From Acetomicrobium sp. S15 = DSM 107314 (lineage in GTDB: Bacteria > Synergistota > Synergistia > Synergistales > Thermosynergistaceae): 64,000 bases of DNA. The stretch is taken from NCBI RefSeq assembly GCF_016125955.1, contig NZ_JADEVE010000091.1, positions 1 through 64,000 of the forward strand. The letters run 5' to 3'. Shown one piece after another: positions 40,211 through 45,350 of the stretch (position 1 is its first letter; every line of letters begins with the position of its first letter). The notes under the pieces are model-generated. The model was not told the origin of the DNA, did not search any database, and worked only from the letters and a program-made list of their open reading frames with translations. Both the position numbers and the translations under genes were made by a program.

Positions 40211-40590
40211 CCAATTACCATGCGGCGATTAGCGCCGTCGGTCGTGGCTAAGCATACTCTGTCGCTTCCGCCGATAGGGCCAGGGTGCCAAACCTTTGTC
40301 TCTTCGTCTATGAGGGCTCTCCTTTTGGTGGACCCTCCTTTGGATAGCAGCTTTCCCGTTGGAACATGTCCGCAGGATGGATCTGATACGTAAGCGAGCC
40401 TGTCTGCGAAAGGTGGGTTCTGTAACCGTAAGGCATGCGGCCATTGCCACGGCTGCATGCGCTGCGTTTCCGCCTTTTTGAGGATTTCAAAGCCCGGCCT
40501 GGGCGACAGATACTTGTCTTGTAGTCACCGTGTCTCAGCGTGAAAAAACACGTTCCTCTGCGACGGGAAACGGCAAGACAACAGATCAAA
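40211..40590 (-). pseudogene. Decayed gamma-glutamyltransferase copy with two internal deletions
   Basis: The sequence matches three separate parts of the intact gene at 43743-45350: its first ~65 codons (RRG...FSR, AACLTVTEPT), a middle part (FADGLAYIADPSC ... KVWHPGPIGGSD) and the last codons before the stop (taccatgcggcgat). The first two are fused with loss of ~730 bases, the last two with loss of ~500 bases. Frameshifts are also present. It is in the same orientation as the intact gene, on the other side of the AOR operon, so it cannot encode an active enzyme. Confidence 0.85.
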
Positions 40591-40656
40591 CACCATATTG
40601 GCCTACCCCGTCCTTCTCAGATTTTTTATATATGCTACTATTGCTATCAGCCAAAA

Positions 40657-41043
40657 TCATCGCCGACCATCACTGAAATCTTTAAATATTTGTCTAATTC
40701 CTTTATCGTCCCGATTGCTTATCCCTTGCTTGAACTCTTCTGTCGCTGGCGCATCCTGGCGATATTGAAAAGGCCACATGCTCTTTAAGTCGAAGAAAGC
40801 GACTCTATCGCCATCCTGCAGAATCGTCGAAAGGTCCGGTTGAAATTTAGGGAGGGCGCTCAGGTTGCCATTGATAAAAGTGAATCCTCGTTCTTCGGTA
40901 GGAATTCCAATCTGTTCGAGGAGGTCTTTGATCGTGCTTCCCTGATCAAGCGAGACCTTTAAATGAGCAAAACCCGTCGACGCATTTTCTCCTCCAAAAC
41001 GAGATAAAGCACCATAAAGCCAAACGTCGATTTCTATTTTCAT
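40657..41043 (-). CDS. MoaD/ThiS-like ubiquitin-fold protein with C-terminal extension
   Basis: The 128-residue protein has an N-terminal ubiquitin-like fold (VWLYGALSRFGG ... FINGNLSAL ... LQDGDRVAFFDLKS, ~1-85), similar in layout to MoaD. A further ~40 residues follow and the C-terminus is FSDGRR, so the terminal Gly-Gly used for sulfur transfer is missing. It is the last gene of the AOR - moaD set, 30 bases after moaD. It may be a variant with a different role, or an inactive paralogue. Confidence 0.75.
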   Translation of the reverse strand: MKIEIDVWLYGALSRFGGENASTGFAHLKVSLDQGSTIKDLLEQIGIPTEERGFTFINGNLSALPKFQPDLSTILQDGDRVAFFDLKSMWPFQYRQDAPATEEFKQGISNRDDKGIRQIFKDFSDGRR

Positions 41044-41073: not shown

Positions 41074-41313
41074 TTATCCGCCACCTACTGGTGGGAAAAG
41101 ACCAACCTCATCTCCGTCCCTAAGTTGCCAATCGAGCTGACGCGATCGACCATTAACATATATCATGCGCACTTCATCAACAGATAATTTCAGGCGATTG
41201 AGCAATCCCATGACGCTTTCGCCTTCTGGAAGCTCGATCTCAACTGGGGCTCCTCGCTCTGTTTTTTTTGTACGATTTGTCAACATAGCGTAAAGTTTTA
41301 CTTTTACTTTCAT
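41074..41313 (-). CDS. MoaD-type sulfur carrier protein
   Basis: The ~79-residue protein is a MoaD/ThiS-family sulfur carrier. It begins KVKVKLYAMLTNRTKK, has the conserved RMIYVNGRSRQLDWQLRDGDEVGLFPPVGGG and ends in Gly-Gly-Gly, the site for adenylation and thiocarboxylation in molybdopterin synthesis. ATG at 41313 follows GAGGTG; the GTG six bases upstream overlaps that site. It lies 116 bases after the AOR gene and likely supplies pterin cofactor to it. Confidence 0.9.
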   Translation of the reverse strand: MKVKVKLYAMLTNRTKKTERGAPVEIELPEGESVMGLLNRLKLSVDEVRMIYVNGRSRQLDWQLRDGDEVGLFPPVGGG

Positions 41314-41429
41314 AGACACACCTCACGTTTACTCCCTTTAGTTTATAGCACAATCACATCAGCTTTATTTTTAAAAAAGCGGACAGAGAGAGTTCTCTCC
41401 GTCCGCTTTATATAGAATGCTCCGAATGC

Positions 41430-43190
41430 TTAAACAGTCTTGAGTACGCTATCTAGGACTTCATCAGGTACGTCAAATGTATGGTTATGCGGAGGCAGGG
41501 GCTCATATTTCATGAACTCTGGCATTCTATCATGTGAATCGTTCAGACCGGCAGCCACATTGAAAGCACGTTCCTTTCTAAGTATTTCAAGTCCGATTTT
41601 TATTACATCCTCTGCGGTCCAATTTGTTCCTAAGATACCATTACACTCCTCCACAAAGCCCTCGAATCCACTAGGAATATCTAAGATGGCAAAGGCGATA
41701 AAGAGACAGTGGCCTGTAGAATCGAGGAATGCAGTAGCAGCTTGAAGGTTGCGACTAATGGCGGCCTTACCTTCAGGGGATAAAGGATCTACTTTACCGC
41801 CAACGCCTAATATCTCGTTGTTTATAGTGTAACCTGAAGTGTGATCAGCTCCCATAGTACTCGTGGCATAGGTTACTCCTATACCTTTAACTGCACGTGG
41901 CTCGTAAGCAGGCATGCCTTGCCCTTTGACCGCTGGAATCCGCACAACGCCAAGAACGCGTCCTGCGGATGCAGTGCCACTCCCGAGGATACGGCCCAAG
42001 GGGGTCCCCTTCCCAATCTCATGAATTAGCTCTATGGCCTTTTCTCCGTCACCAAATTTGAAGATACCCGCTTCTGCGGCCACACCAAGGGTGCCACCCG
42101 TCTCAATAGTGTCCAATCCATAGGCGTTGCATAGCCGTACCATCTCTGCAATTTGGTCCAGGTTGTCAATGCCCAGGTTAGCGCCCAGAGACCAATCCGA
42201 CTCATACTCGACACAGGAGACGTGCTCTCTTCCATCTTGCTTGTACCATGTATTAGAGCACTGTATGATGCAACCTGGGCTACAGGCATGATTGTAAACT
42301 TCTTTTCCAACACGAGTCTTATTTCCTTCAAATATTGCCTCACCGGCAATCTTAGGTGCTCCCTCAAAGCGACCTGTTTTGAAATTGCGCGTTGGAAGCC
42401 CCCCAGCCTCATTCAATATATTGATGAGCACAGCTGTGCCATACGTGTTTAAACCACCCTTCGGCTTTGTGATATCATGAGTACGCAGAGCATTGGCAAG
42501 CTTTTCGCAACCTTGATCGAATAAAGCTTTATCAACAATTGGCACTTCTGGCGCCCCTTGAGCACTTGTGACTATAAATTTGAGGCGTTTGCTTCCCATT
42601 ACAGAACCAAGTCCGCCTCGACCCGAGTAACGAGTAGGTTGGCCTTTGAGGTCGTTAAATACGATCCCAGAGTTGGCATATCCATACTCTCCCGCGACTC
42701 CGATACCCGCTATGGAGATGCCTTTCCCAAATCGTTCGTAAATCTTGGGGAATACAGCGTAGAGATCACTACCTATGTACTCATCAGCAGGGAGAAACTC
42801 AATTTTTGGCCTTTCCTCTTTGGCATCCCAACTAATATGGATCATCCAATATTTATCTTCTTTAGGTTGACTATAGACAACGATGGCTTTGATCTTCATT
42901 CTAGCGACGTCGACACTCCACGACGTCCCTGCGTTTGATTCCTTAATTCCACCCGTTAAAGGGGATTTGGCTCCGACGGAAACGCGCGCAGATGTGGGAG
43001 CATCAGTACCTGTAACAATGCCAGGTGCAAAAACTAAGACGTTGTTGGGGCCTAGGGGATGACACAGGGGATTTACTTCGTCACAAACGATGGTCGATGT
43101 TAGTCCTCTTCCTCCCAAATTTTTATAAGCATTGGGCACGTCCTCTAATTTATACGTTTTATCGCTCATGTTTATTTTCAGAATCCACAT
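41430..43190 (-). CDS. Aldehyde:ferredoxin oxidoreductase (tungsten/molybdenum)
   Basis: The 586-residue enzyme oxidises aldehydes to acids with ferredoxin as acceptor. The N-terminal pterin-binding domain shows NLGGRGLTSTIV (~25) and YSGRGGLGSVMGSKRLK (~188-204). The 4Fe-4S ligands are C303, C307 and C311 in HACSPGCIIQC, with a fourth Cys near residue 495 (DSTGHCLFIAFA). The C-terminus (ending DEVLDSVLKTV) differs from that of the typical AOR relic at 46248, so they are different subfamilies. A GGAGGT site precedes the ATG. A structured leader lies just upstream, and two MoaD-fold genes follow. Confidence 0.93.
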   Translation of the reverse strand: MWILKINMSDKTYKLEDVPNAYKNLGGRGLTSTIVCDEVNPLCHPLGPNNVLVFAPGIVTGTDAPTSARVSVGAKSPLTGGIKESNAGTSWSVDVARMKIKAIVVYSQPKEDKYWMIHISWDAKEERPKIEFLPADEYIGSDLYAVFPKIYERFGKGISIAGIGVAGEYGYANSGIVFNDLKGQPTRYSGRGGLGSVMGSKRLKFIVTSAQGAPEVPIVDKALFDQGCEKLANALRTHDITKPKGGLNTYGTAVLINILNEAGGLPTRNFKTGRFEGAPKIAGEAIFEGNKTRVGKEVYNHACSPGCIIQCSNTWYKQDGREHVSCVEYESDWSLGANLGIDNLDQIAEMVRLCNAYGLDTIETGGTLGVAAEAGIFKFGDGEKAIELIHEIGKGTPLGRILGSGTASAGRVLGVVRIPAVKGQGMPAYEPRAVKGIGVTYATSTMGADHTSGYTINNEILGVGGKVDPLSPEGKAAISRNLQAATAFLDSTGHCLFIAFAILDIPSGFEGFVEECNGILGTNWTAEDVIKIGLEILRKERAFNVAAGLNDSHDRMPEFMKYEPLPPHNHTFDVPDEVLDSVLKTV

Positions 43191-43289
43191 ACTATTTACC
43201 TCCTTCTCTCCTTCTTTTTAGAACGTGGACTCATCTTTGCGCTCTCTTCAAGAGTCGATACCCTCTGTTACGAGCACCAGCATCCCAAA

Positions 43290-43470
43290 ATCAAAAATTC
43301 GCAAAGGTCATGCCATCACCCCTTTCAAGGCAATGTAATCCCCTTTGCGAATTGGCAGGCATTGAGATTGCTCCCAATACCCTAACGCTCATCTCTCCCA
43401 GAGGGAGAATAATGAGTCGGAGACAATTTTTAGGAGTTACGCAGTTGCCTGTGACCCTCCTTCTCAGAAA
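43290..43470 (-). promoter_or_regulatory. Candidate Moco/Tuco-type riboswitch with intrinsic terminator
   Basis: The minus-strand leader of the AOR gene folds into nested helices: CAGGCA with UGCCUG (43446-43451 with 43356-43361), AUUG-U-CUCC with GGAGCAAU, CUCAU with AUGAG, and an apical UCUCCC/GGGAGA. Immediately after comes a perfect 12-base stem AAUUCGCAAAGG/CCUUUGCGAAUU (43342-43353 with 43296-43307) followed by a U-rich tract, an intrinsic terminator ~100 bases before the start codon. The gene controlled is a W/Mo-pterin enzyme, so a molybdenum/tungsten cofactor riboswitch is the best guess; assignment from motif memory is uncertain. The rest of this gap (43191-43742) shows no gene. Confidence 0.6.
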
Positions 43471-43472
43471 AA

Positions 43473-43501
43473 GCATTAACACAGAAACATAAGCCTGTCA
43501 A
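43473..43501 (-). promoter_or_regulatory. Candidate promoter for the AOR leader
   Basis: On the minus strand TTGACA (43496-43501) is followed after 17 bases by TAATGC (43473-43478). Transcription would begin near 43466, just ahead of the folded leader. Confidence 0.5.
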
Positions 43502-43518
43502 GAGCCGCGAGCGGCTCT
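43501..43518. repeat. Perfect inverted repeat upstream of the AOR promoter
   Basis: AGAGCCGC and GCGGCTCT flank a two-base centre, adjacent to the -35 box. It could be an operator or the end of the gamma-glutamyltransferase transcript; no T tract follows on the minus strand. Confidence 0.45.
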
Positions 43519-43742: not shown

Positions 43743-45350
43743 CTACCATGCGGCGATCGTGCCGTCGGTCCTCGGCTCCGTTCCGCCGCAAAGATTTCCG
43801 TTTTCCATCCTCCAGATTATCTGCCCCCTGCCGAAGGGCGCGTGTTTCGAAGATATAGCCACGTCGTGACCGCGCCTGGCGAGCGCAGCAGCTATGTGCT
43901 CCGGGAAGCCGTATTCCAAGAGCACCTCTTTACATTTTACCCACATCCAGCGCGGGGCATCGAGCGCCTCTTGGGGGTTTAGGCCGAAGTCGAGCATATT
44001 CATGAGGACTTGAACGTGAGCCTGAGGTTGCATAAAGGCTCCCATTATGCCGAAAGGCCCTATGGGTTTGCCGTCTTTAGAGATAAAACCAGGAATTATC
44101 GTATGATACGGGCGCTTGCCGGGCCTTAAGGCGTTTGGATGATCGGGAGAGAGTGAAAAGCAGGCACCTCTATTTTGGAGCGCCACGCCCGTTTTCGGCA
44201 CGACGATGCCTGAGCCGAAGCCCATGTAGTTGCTCTGTATGTAGGAGACCATGTTCCCATTGCCGTCTGCCGTGGCTAAATATACGGTATCGCTTCCGCC
44301 GATAGGGCCAGGGTGCCAAACCTTTGCCTCTTGGCCTATGAGAGCCCTCCTTTTGGCGGTCCTTTCTTGAGATAATAGCTCTTCCGTTGGAACGCTCTCG
44401 CAGGAAGGGTCTGCTATGTATGCAAGCCCGTCTGCGAAAGCGGCCTTTATCGCCTCTATCTGCAAGTGATACGTAACTGGGTTTTCTTTTTCCGTGAAGG
44501 AAAATCCTTTCAAAATGTTTAAAGCTATGAGGGCCACTATACTCTGGCCATTTGGAGGAAGCTCCCATACGTCGTAGCCGCGGTAATCTATTTTAACGGG
44601 TTCGACCCATTCGGGGGCAAAAGATGCTAAGTCTTCCTCATCGATGAAGCCGCCCGTTTTTCTGGCAAAGTCCGCTATTTTTCGGGCGATCTCGCCCCTG
44701 TAAAAGACTTCACTTTCGCTTTCGCCAATAAGTTCAAGCGTTTCTGCGTGGTCCGGTAAATTCAGCGTTTCTCCCGCTTGGGGCGCGCGCCCGCGGGGTG
44801 CAAAGGTCTCAAACCATGCCTCTTTTATCTCACCGGAAAGCTCTTTTTCGAAGCGCGAGCAGCTTTCTTTCCAGGCCGACGATACGGTAGGGGAGACCGG
44901 ATAGCCATTCCGCGCGTACTCTGCAGCCGGCCTTAGCACATCTTTTAGCGGAAGTTTGCCAAACTTTTTAATGAGCTCTGCCCAGGCTGCCGGCACCCCC
45001 GGGACGGTCACGGGAACCCAGCCGCTTTTTGGGATTTCGTCGTAACCTTCTTTCTTTAAGCGTTCGATCGAAAGGGCTTTGGGAGCACATCCGCTTGCGT
45101 TTAGGCCGTAAAGTTTCCCGTCCGTACAAATGATGCAAAAAGCGTCTCCGCCGATGCCGCAGGAGGTGGGTTCTGTAACCGTAAGGCATGCAGCCGTTGC
45201 CACGGCTGCATCTACAGCGTTTCCGCCTTTTTTGAGGATTTCAAGGCCCGCTTGGGCGGCAAGGACCTGCCCTGTAGATACCATGCCGAGGCGCGAAAAA
45301 ACCACGTTCCTCCGCGACGGGTAACGGTAAGTTAAAGGATCAAACGTCAC
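43743..45350 (-). CDS. Gamma-glutamyltransferase family protein
   Basis: The 535-residue protein is a gamma-glutamyltranspeptidase-type N-terminal nucleophile hydrolase. Landmarks are GLEILKKGGNAVDAAVATAACLTVTEPTSCGIGGD (~35-70; key GGNAVDAAVA and GIGGD), LPPNGQSIVALIALNIL (~270) and the nucleophile region TVYLATADGNGNMVSYIQ (~352) where Thr should be the catalytic residue after autocleavage. No signal peptide is seen, so it may act in the cytoplasm. A second, decayed copy lies at 40211-40590. The DUF169 gene is 49 bases upstream. Confidence 0.9.
   Translation of the reverse strand: MTFDPLTYRYPSRRNVVFSRLGMVSTGQVLAAQAGLEILKKGGNAVDAAVATAACLTVTEPTSCGIGGDAFCIICTDGKLYGLNASGCAPKALSIERLKKEGYDEIPKSGWVPVTVPGVPAAWAELIKKFGKLPLKDVLRPAAEYARNGYPVSPTVSSAWKESCSRFEKELSGEIKEAWFETFAPRGRAPQAGETLNLPDHAETLELIGESESEVFYRGEIARKIADFARKTGGFIDEEDLASFAPEWVEPVKIDYRGYDVWELPPNGQSIVALIALNILKGFSFTEKENPVTYHLQIEAIKAAFADGLAYIADPSCESVPTEELLSQERTAKRRALIGQEAKVWHPGPIGGSDTVYLATADGNGNMVSYIQSNYMGFGSGIVVPKTGVALQNRGACFSLSPDHPNALRPGKRPYHTIIPGFISKDGKPIGPFGIMGAFMQPQAHVQVLMNMLDFGLNPQEALDAPRWMWVKCKEVLLEYGFPEHIAAALARRGHDVAISSKHAPFGRGQIIWRMENGNLCGGTEPRTDGTIAAW

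Follow-up and report, generated by a model that had tools for sequence, protein, structure and literature searches.

An aldehyde ferredoxin oxidoreductase (AOR) gene of Acetomicrobium sp. S15 is preceded by a member of the Moco/Tuco RNA family (RF01055) whose core is mutually exclusive with the terminator of the same leader, an exclusion that is conserved in AOR leaders of other genomes. Within the window, i.e., the whole stretch of 64,000 nucleotides that was analysed, this RNA is a P3-less (Tuco-type) element that probably acts on AOR operon transcription as a ligand-ON riboswitch; its binding, its ligand and the direction of its response are predictions from sequence and folding. Both RF01055 and its P3-less type were already known, and what appears to be new is the predicted ON-type layout in AOR leaders.

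A P3-less Moco-family RNA and its candidate ligand

Along the minus strand, a TTGACA box is followed in the leader by a multi-helix RNA (43434-43338), then by a perfect 12-base stem, a U-rich tract and the AOR start codon at 43190 (Table 1). The stem pairs 43353-43342 with 43307-43296 and continues into AATTTTTGATTTT. None of 1000 dinucleotide shuffles gave a perfect 12-base arm, the longest shuffled arm being 11, and folding of the 160-nt region gives z = -6.2, with 0 of 200 shuffles equally good. A sequence-only reading had proposed such a compact fold, terminator stem and U tract about 100 bases before a W/Mo enzyme gene, all of which hold, the gene being identified by its AFOR_N and AFOR_C domains. 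It had also proposed a promoter, of which the TTGACA box and a weak -10-like motif can be seen; a promoter scan at default threshold called no site in the AOR leader, and the promoter is therefore only plausible.

Table 1. Elements of the AOR leader and operon, in window coordinates
Feature	Position	Strand	Basis or remark
Putative promoter	43475..43502	-	TTGACA 43502-43497, weak -10-like GTTAAT 43480-43475; sequence only
Moco/Tuco riboswitch aptamer (predicted ligand binding)	43324..43434	-	RF01055 match, model 1-135, P3 deleted
P1 5' strand GUCUCC	43419..43424	-	Partner GGGGAU; minimum free energy (MFE) fold of transcript to 43338
P2 hairpin, without tetraloop receptor	43388..43416	-	Model alignment and folding
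P4 hairpin, GCAA tetraloop 43371-43368	43357..43383	-	Model alignment and folding
P5, GC 43356-43355 with GC 43348-43347	43347..43356	-	Alignment and folding
P1 3' strand GGGGAU	43338..43343	-	Conserved AAA 43346-43344 directly before
Terminator 5' arm AAUUCGCAAAGG	43342..43353	-	Overlaps P5, AAA and P1
Inner hairpin within terminator loop	43314..43335	-	Folding; fits both states
Terminator 3' arm CCUUUGCGAAUU	43296..43307	-	Folding
U-rich tract AAUUUUUGAUUUU	43286..43299	-	Sequence; shares bases with end of 3' arm
AOR ribosome-binding site AAGGAGG	43205-43199	-	
AOR, 586 aa	41430..43190	-	AFOR_N E 3.5e-54, AFOR_C E 1.1e-78
ThiS/MoaD-like protein	41074..41319	-	ThiS family 1e-10; operon with AOR likely
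Second ThiS/Ub-Mut7C-like protein	40657..41043	-	Operon with AOR likely

The earlier suggestion of a Moco/Tuco riboswitch is borne out by a covariance-model search, which aligns the RNA over the full model length at 40.1 bits (gathering cut-off 36 bits; E 4.6e-06), no other Rfam family matching the window RNA at E up to 1. The P3 columns are deleted in this alignment, and the RNA lies upstream of a Mo/W-related gene. Regulski 2008 (PMC2408646) split the family by the presence or absence of P3 and tied the P3-less type to use of the tungsten cofactor. Across the family, a GNRA loop in P4 with a receptor in P2 is common, not universal, and hence non-defining. The window RNA carries the GCAA loop on P4 without the receptor in P2, which does not exclude membership because the published set includes GCAA RNAs without receptor (four of four GCAA RNAs there; PMC2408646); by its sequence it fits this minority type. 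P5 is formed by GC/GC, as opposed to CC/GG in most of the family.

With the E. coli moaA RNA, which contains P3 (PMC2408646), the window RNA shares P1, P2, P4, P5 and the conserved junction nucleotides, and both belong to leaders of cofactor-related genes; the window RNA differs in lacking P3 and the receptor, in having GCAA rather than GAAA, and in its terminator and predicted ON response, as opposed to OFF control through the ribosome-binding site. With the Tuco riboswitches proposed in the same source it shares the absence of P3, the adjacent tungsten-related gene and a TupABC transporter in the genome, and the receptor-less GCAA form is recorded there in four RNAs.

The window's genome encodes five RF01055 RNAs, all P3-less by inspection, the other four having a GAAA loop with receptor and scoring 66-77 bits. 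One of these precedes a tupABC-like tungstate transporter and another a second TupA-like gene; a third lies before an aldehyde oxidoreductase (molybdopterin hydroxylase family, NF045668), and the fourth, L004, before a DcuR-like response regulator with two NAD aldehyde dehydrogenases behind it. Genes for tungsten uptake and use are found in the genome: a TupA-like protein at 398.1 bits, against a cut-off of 400, a TupB-like protein at 304.4 bits, against a cut-off of 320, both thus just below threshold, and several AOR homologs.

The tungsten cofactor is the most likely ligand, AOR being a tungsten enzyme family and the TupABC genes of the genome lying under another P3-less RNA. A reading that differs in the ligand only, with an ON-layout aptamer sensing Moco, either cofactor or another pterin form, is less likely and still to be taken seriously: a further P3-less RNA of the genome precedes the molybdopterin-dependent NF045668 oxidoreductase, and the Tuco assignment of P3-less RNAs is correlative, holding in 17 of 19 organisms (PMC2408646), while deletion of P3 in E. 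coli left specificity unswitched.

Competition between aptamer and terminator

The 5' arm of the terminator is part of the aptamer core: it runs from the 3' strand of P5 through the conserved AAA into the 3' strand of P1, of which it includes the first bases. The sequence-only reading had the terminator begin two bases after the closing helix of the aptamer, which is incorrect, that helix being P4 and the aptamer extending to 43338 with the 5' arm inside it.

In prefix folding, the MFE structure of the transcript ending at 43338, where P1 is complete, is the canonical Moco aptamer, in which all six pairs of P1 are formed; a different fold scores better at the intermediate length 43319, and the aptamer with six P1 pairs, plus an extra hairpin, is again the MFE at 43308. 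With the 3' arm transcribed, the terminator state reaches -59.8 kcal/mol versus -49.9 kcal/mol for the P1-enforced state, and a terminator scan of the window leader found no P1-compatible terminator. The aptamer core and the terminator being mutually exclusive, as expected of a ligand-ON layout, ligand-dependent antitermination is predicted. The aptamer (P1, P2, P4 and P5) would fold first, and binding of the cofactor, most likely the tungsten cofactor, would lock P1 and P5, leaving the terminator 5' arm unavailable and allowing the polymerase to read through into AOR. In the absence of cofactor, the 3' arm, once transcribed, would take the core strand and a strong terminator would form, the tungsten enzyme being made only in the presence of its cofactor. 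Translational control of AOR was considered and set aside, pairing of the ribosome-binding site with the aptamer not being evident from the sequence.

In pbuE adenine and similar ligand-ON riboswitches, the terminator competes with P1 and the ligand prevents termination. The AOR leader shares with them the sequence overlap of terminator 5' arm and P1 3' strand; their aptamer and ligand are unrelated to the window RNA, and common descent is not claimed.

Conservation of the layout in AOR leaders

AOR homologs found in the window's own phylum are at best 67% identical, and the leaders of the closest ones contain no Moco RNA; the comparison was therefore taken outside the phylum, to 80 AOR relatives (55-78% identical) from named genomes, mostly Chloroflexota. 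RF01055 was detected above cut-off in 23 of the 80 leaders, always just upstream of AOR. An intrinsic terminator is present in 22 of these, the remaining one (L078) having an aptamer only, and its 5' arm includes bases of the P1 3' strand in all 22. In most relatives the arm covers AAAGGAGG entirely (e.g., AAAGGAGGCAAUCC/GGAUUGCCUCCUUU in L089), the overlap being weaker in L073, L075, L076 and L079, and a weaker P1-compatible hairpin is additionally present in 10 of the 22. The register of the window terminator differs from the Chloroflexota ones in capturing P5 and only two P1 bases.

Overall, the strongest terminator overlaps P1 in 24/24 AOR leaders with a terminator (window and L328 included), as opposed to 4/30 non-AOR Moco RNAs of the same genomes, which precede moaA, wtpA-like, permease, moeA, transporter and xanthine dehydrogenase-family genes. 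L328, an apparent exception among the controls, has the same P1-overlapping layout and precedes another AOR operon, which includes ferredoxin-like and ThiF genes. Under the same automatic rule, P1 overlap is assigned to 14 of the 124 terminator-bearing non-AOR RNAs in the window's phylum, eight of the 14 having a nearly equal P1-compatible terminator and most of the others being weak. The Fisher p-values (1e-11 and 4e-18) overstate certainty, since the AOR leaders are related and the counts non-independent. ON-like terminators were also observed before a WtpA/ModA-like gene (L291) and a short-chain dehydrogenase gene (L327), and tandem Moco RNAs before WtpA/ModA-like binding protein genes (L313/L293 in G204:C292, L303/L329 in G208:C259).

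Compensatory changes, anticipated for a genuine Moco RNA, are found in the same leader of the relatives: double changes affect 20 of 31 aptamer pairs (82 double-change cells, 91% of cells paired), matched in 0 of 500 shuffles, with no shuffled or slid register coming close. The P1-terminator stem shows double changes in 5 pairs (15 cells); its partner strands were identified from the fold of each individual leader, a procedure that biases the count towards pairing.

All four other Moco RNAs of the window's genome have an OFF-type layout, with a terminator after P1 in three (L002 and L003 by scan, L001 by eye) and with the 3' strand of P1 doubling as ribosome-binding site in L004. These copies, together with the tested member of the family, E. 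coli moaA, which represses with Moco (PMC2408646), are what favours an ordinary ligand-OFF riboswitch, in which the cofactor would promote termination as in the described members. This reading is improbable for the window leader, where the sole strong terminator consumes the aptamer core and no P1-compatible terminator was found, and the shared layout of all 24 AOR leaders argues against it as well. A decayed or constitutive element, with a terminator that merely attenuates AOR and an aptamer that no longer binds, is slightly less probable still: the core is divergent (40 bits, the lowest of the five genome copies), the receptor is absent and P1 has two G-U pairs, yet the nucleotides invariant in AOR relatives (CUCCGA, GG, GCC, GC, AAAGG) are retained, the change in the P5 pair is compensated, receptor-less GCAA RNAs are on record as a minority type (PMC2408646), and the layout is kept in leaders that diverge in sequence.

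The predicted ON response inverts what Regulski 2008 (PMC2408646) gives for P3-less RNAs, i.e., repression with terminators after the motif, and the available text of that paper mentions no inverted layout tied to AOR. Regulation by Moco/Tuco RNAs is described as repressing or left open in the literature as available, and a ligand-ON arrangement for AOR was not found in the literature searched, the coverage of which is incomplete.

Within the phylum, a first automatic scan returned 28 ON-like RNAs, most being multibranch or antiterminator artefacts; a stricter hairpin-only scan left 11, of which inspection retained the window RNA as the only clear ON case. Among those set aside, L245 has an overlapping hairpin with a poor U tract, and L231 looks like an OFF switch with an antiterminator overlapping the core. 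AORs of other subfamilies in the phylum (L167, L228, L281) have a Moco RNA and no such terminator; in L167 and L281, which are without terminator, the conserved CCUCCC of the core is a possible pairing partner for a GGAGGG-type ribosome-binding site, making translational ON control possible on sequence grounds. Sixteen Moco RNAs of the phylum precede DcuR-like response regulators. In L004 and L009, the ribosome-binding site lies in P1 ahead of such a regulator and two NAD aldehyde dehydrogenases, a context suggesting that W-dependent and W-independent aldehyde oxidation are controlled reciprocally. Back-to-back divergent Moco RNAs occur at G045:C188:5708-6089 and G044:C73:17018-17412.

Implications and possible origin of the proposed AOR switch

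Since 2008, tungsten-cofactor sensing by P3-less Moco RNAs has rested on gene-context correlation. A natural ON switch before a tungsten enzyme would offer a gain-of-signal assay comparing tungstate with molybdate, with the OFF copies of the same genome as built-in controls. AOR relatives in many other bacteria appear to have the ON-type design, and other genes of the cofactor regulon mostly the opposite one. A broader proposal, advanced tentatively and with rather less than even confidence, is that AOR-linked P3-less GCAA-type Moco RNAs constitute a separate ligand-ON subclass for the tungsten cofactor, used reciprocally with OFF copies in the same genome. If so, the cofactor would turn AOR on, and tungstate uptake as well as the regulator and NAD-dependent aldehyde dehydrogenases off, one aptamer family being wired in opposite directions according to gene function.

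In the AOR tree, the window sequence falls in a fully supported clade of 28 rows, mostly Chloroflexota and mostly RNA-bearing. This placement, together with own-phylum homologs without the leader, suggests joint acquisition of gene and switch; if true, both would be able to move together between phyla. The AOR cassette sits between two copies of a gamma-glutamyltransferase gene, one intact (43743-45350) and one a broken fragment (40234-40591) in two pieces that are 81-82% identical to 44262-44440 and 45164-45345.
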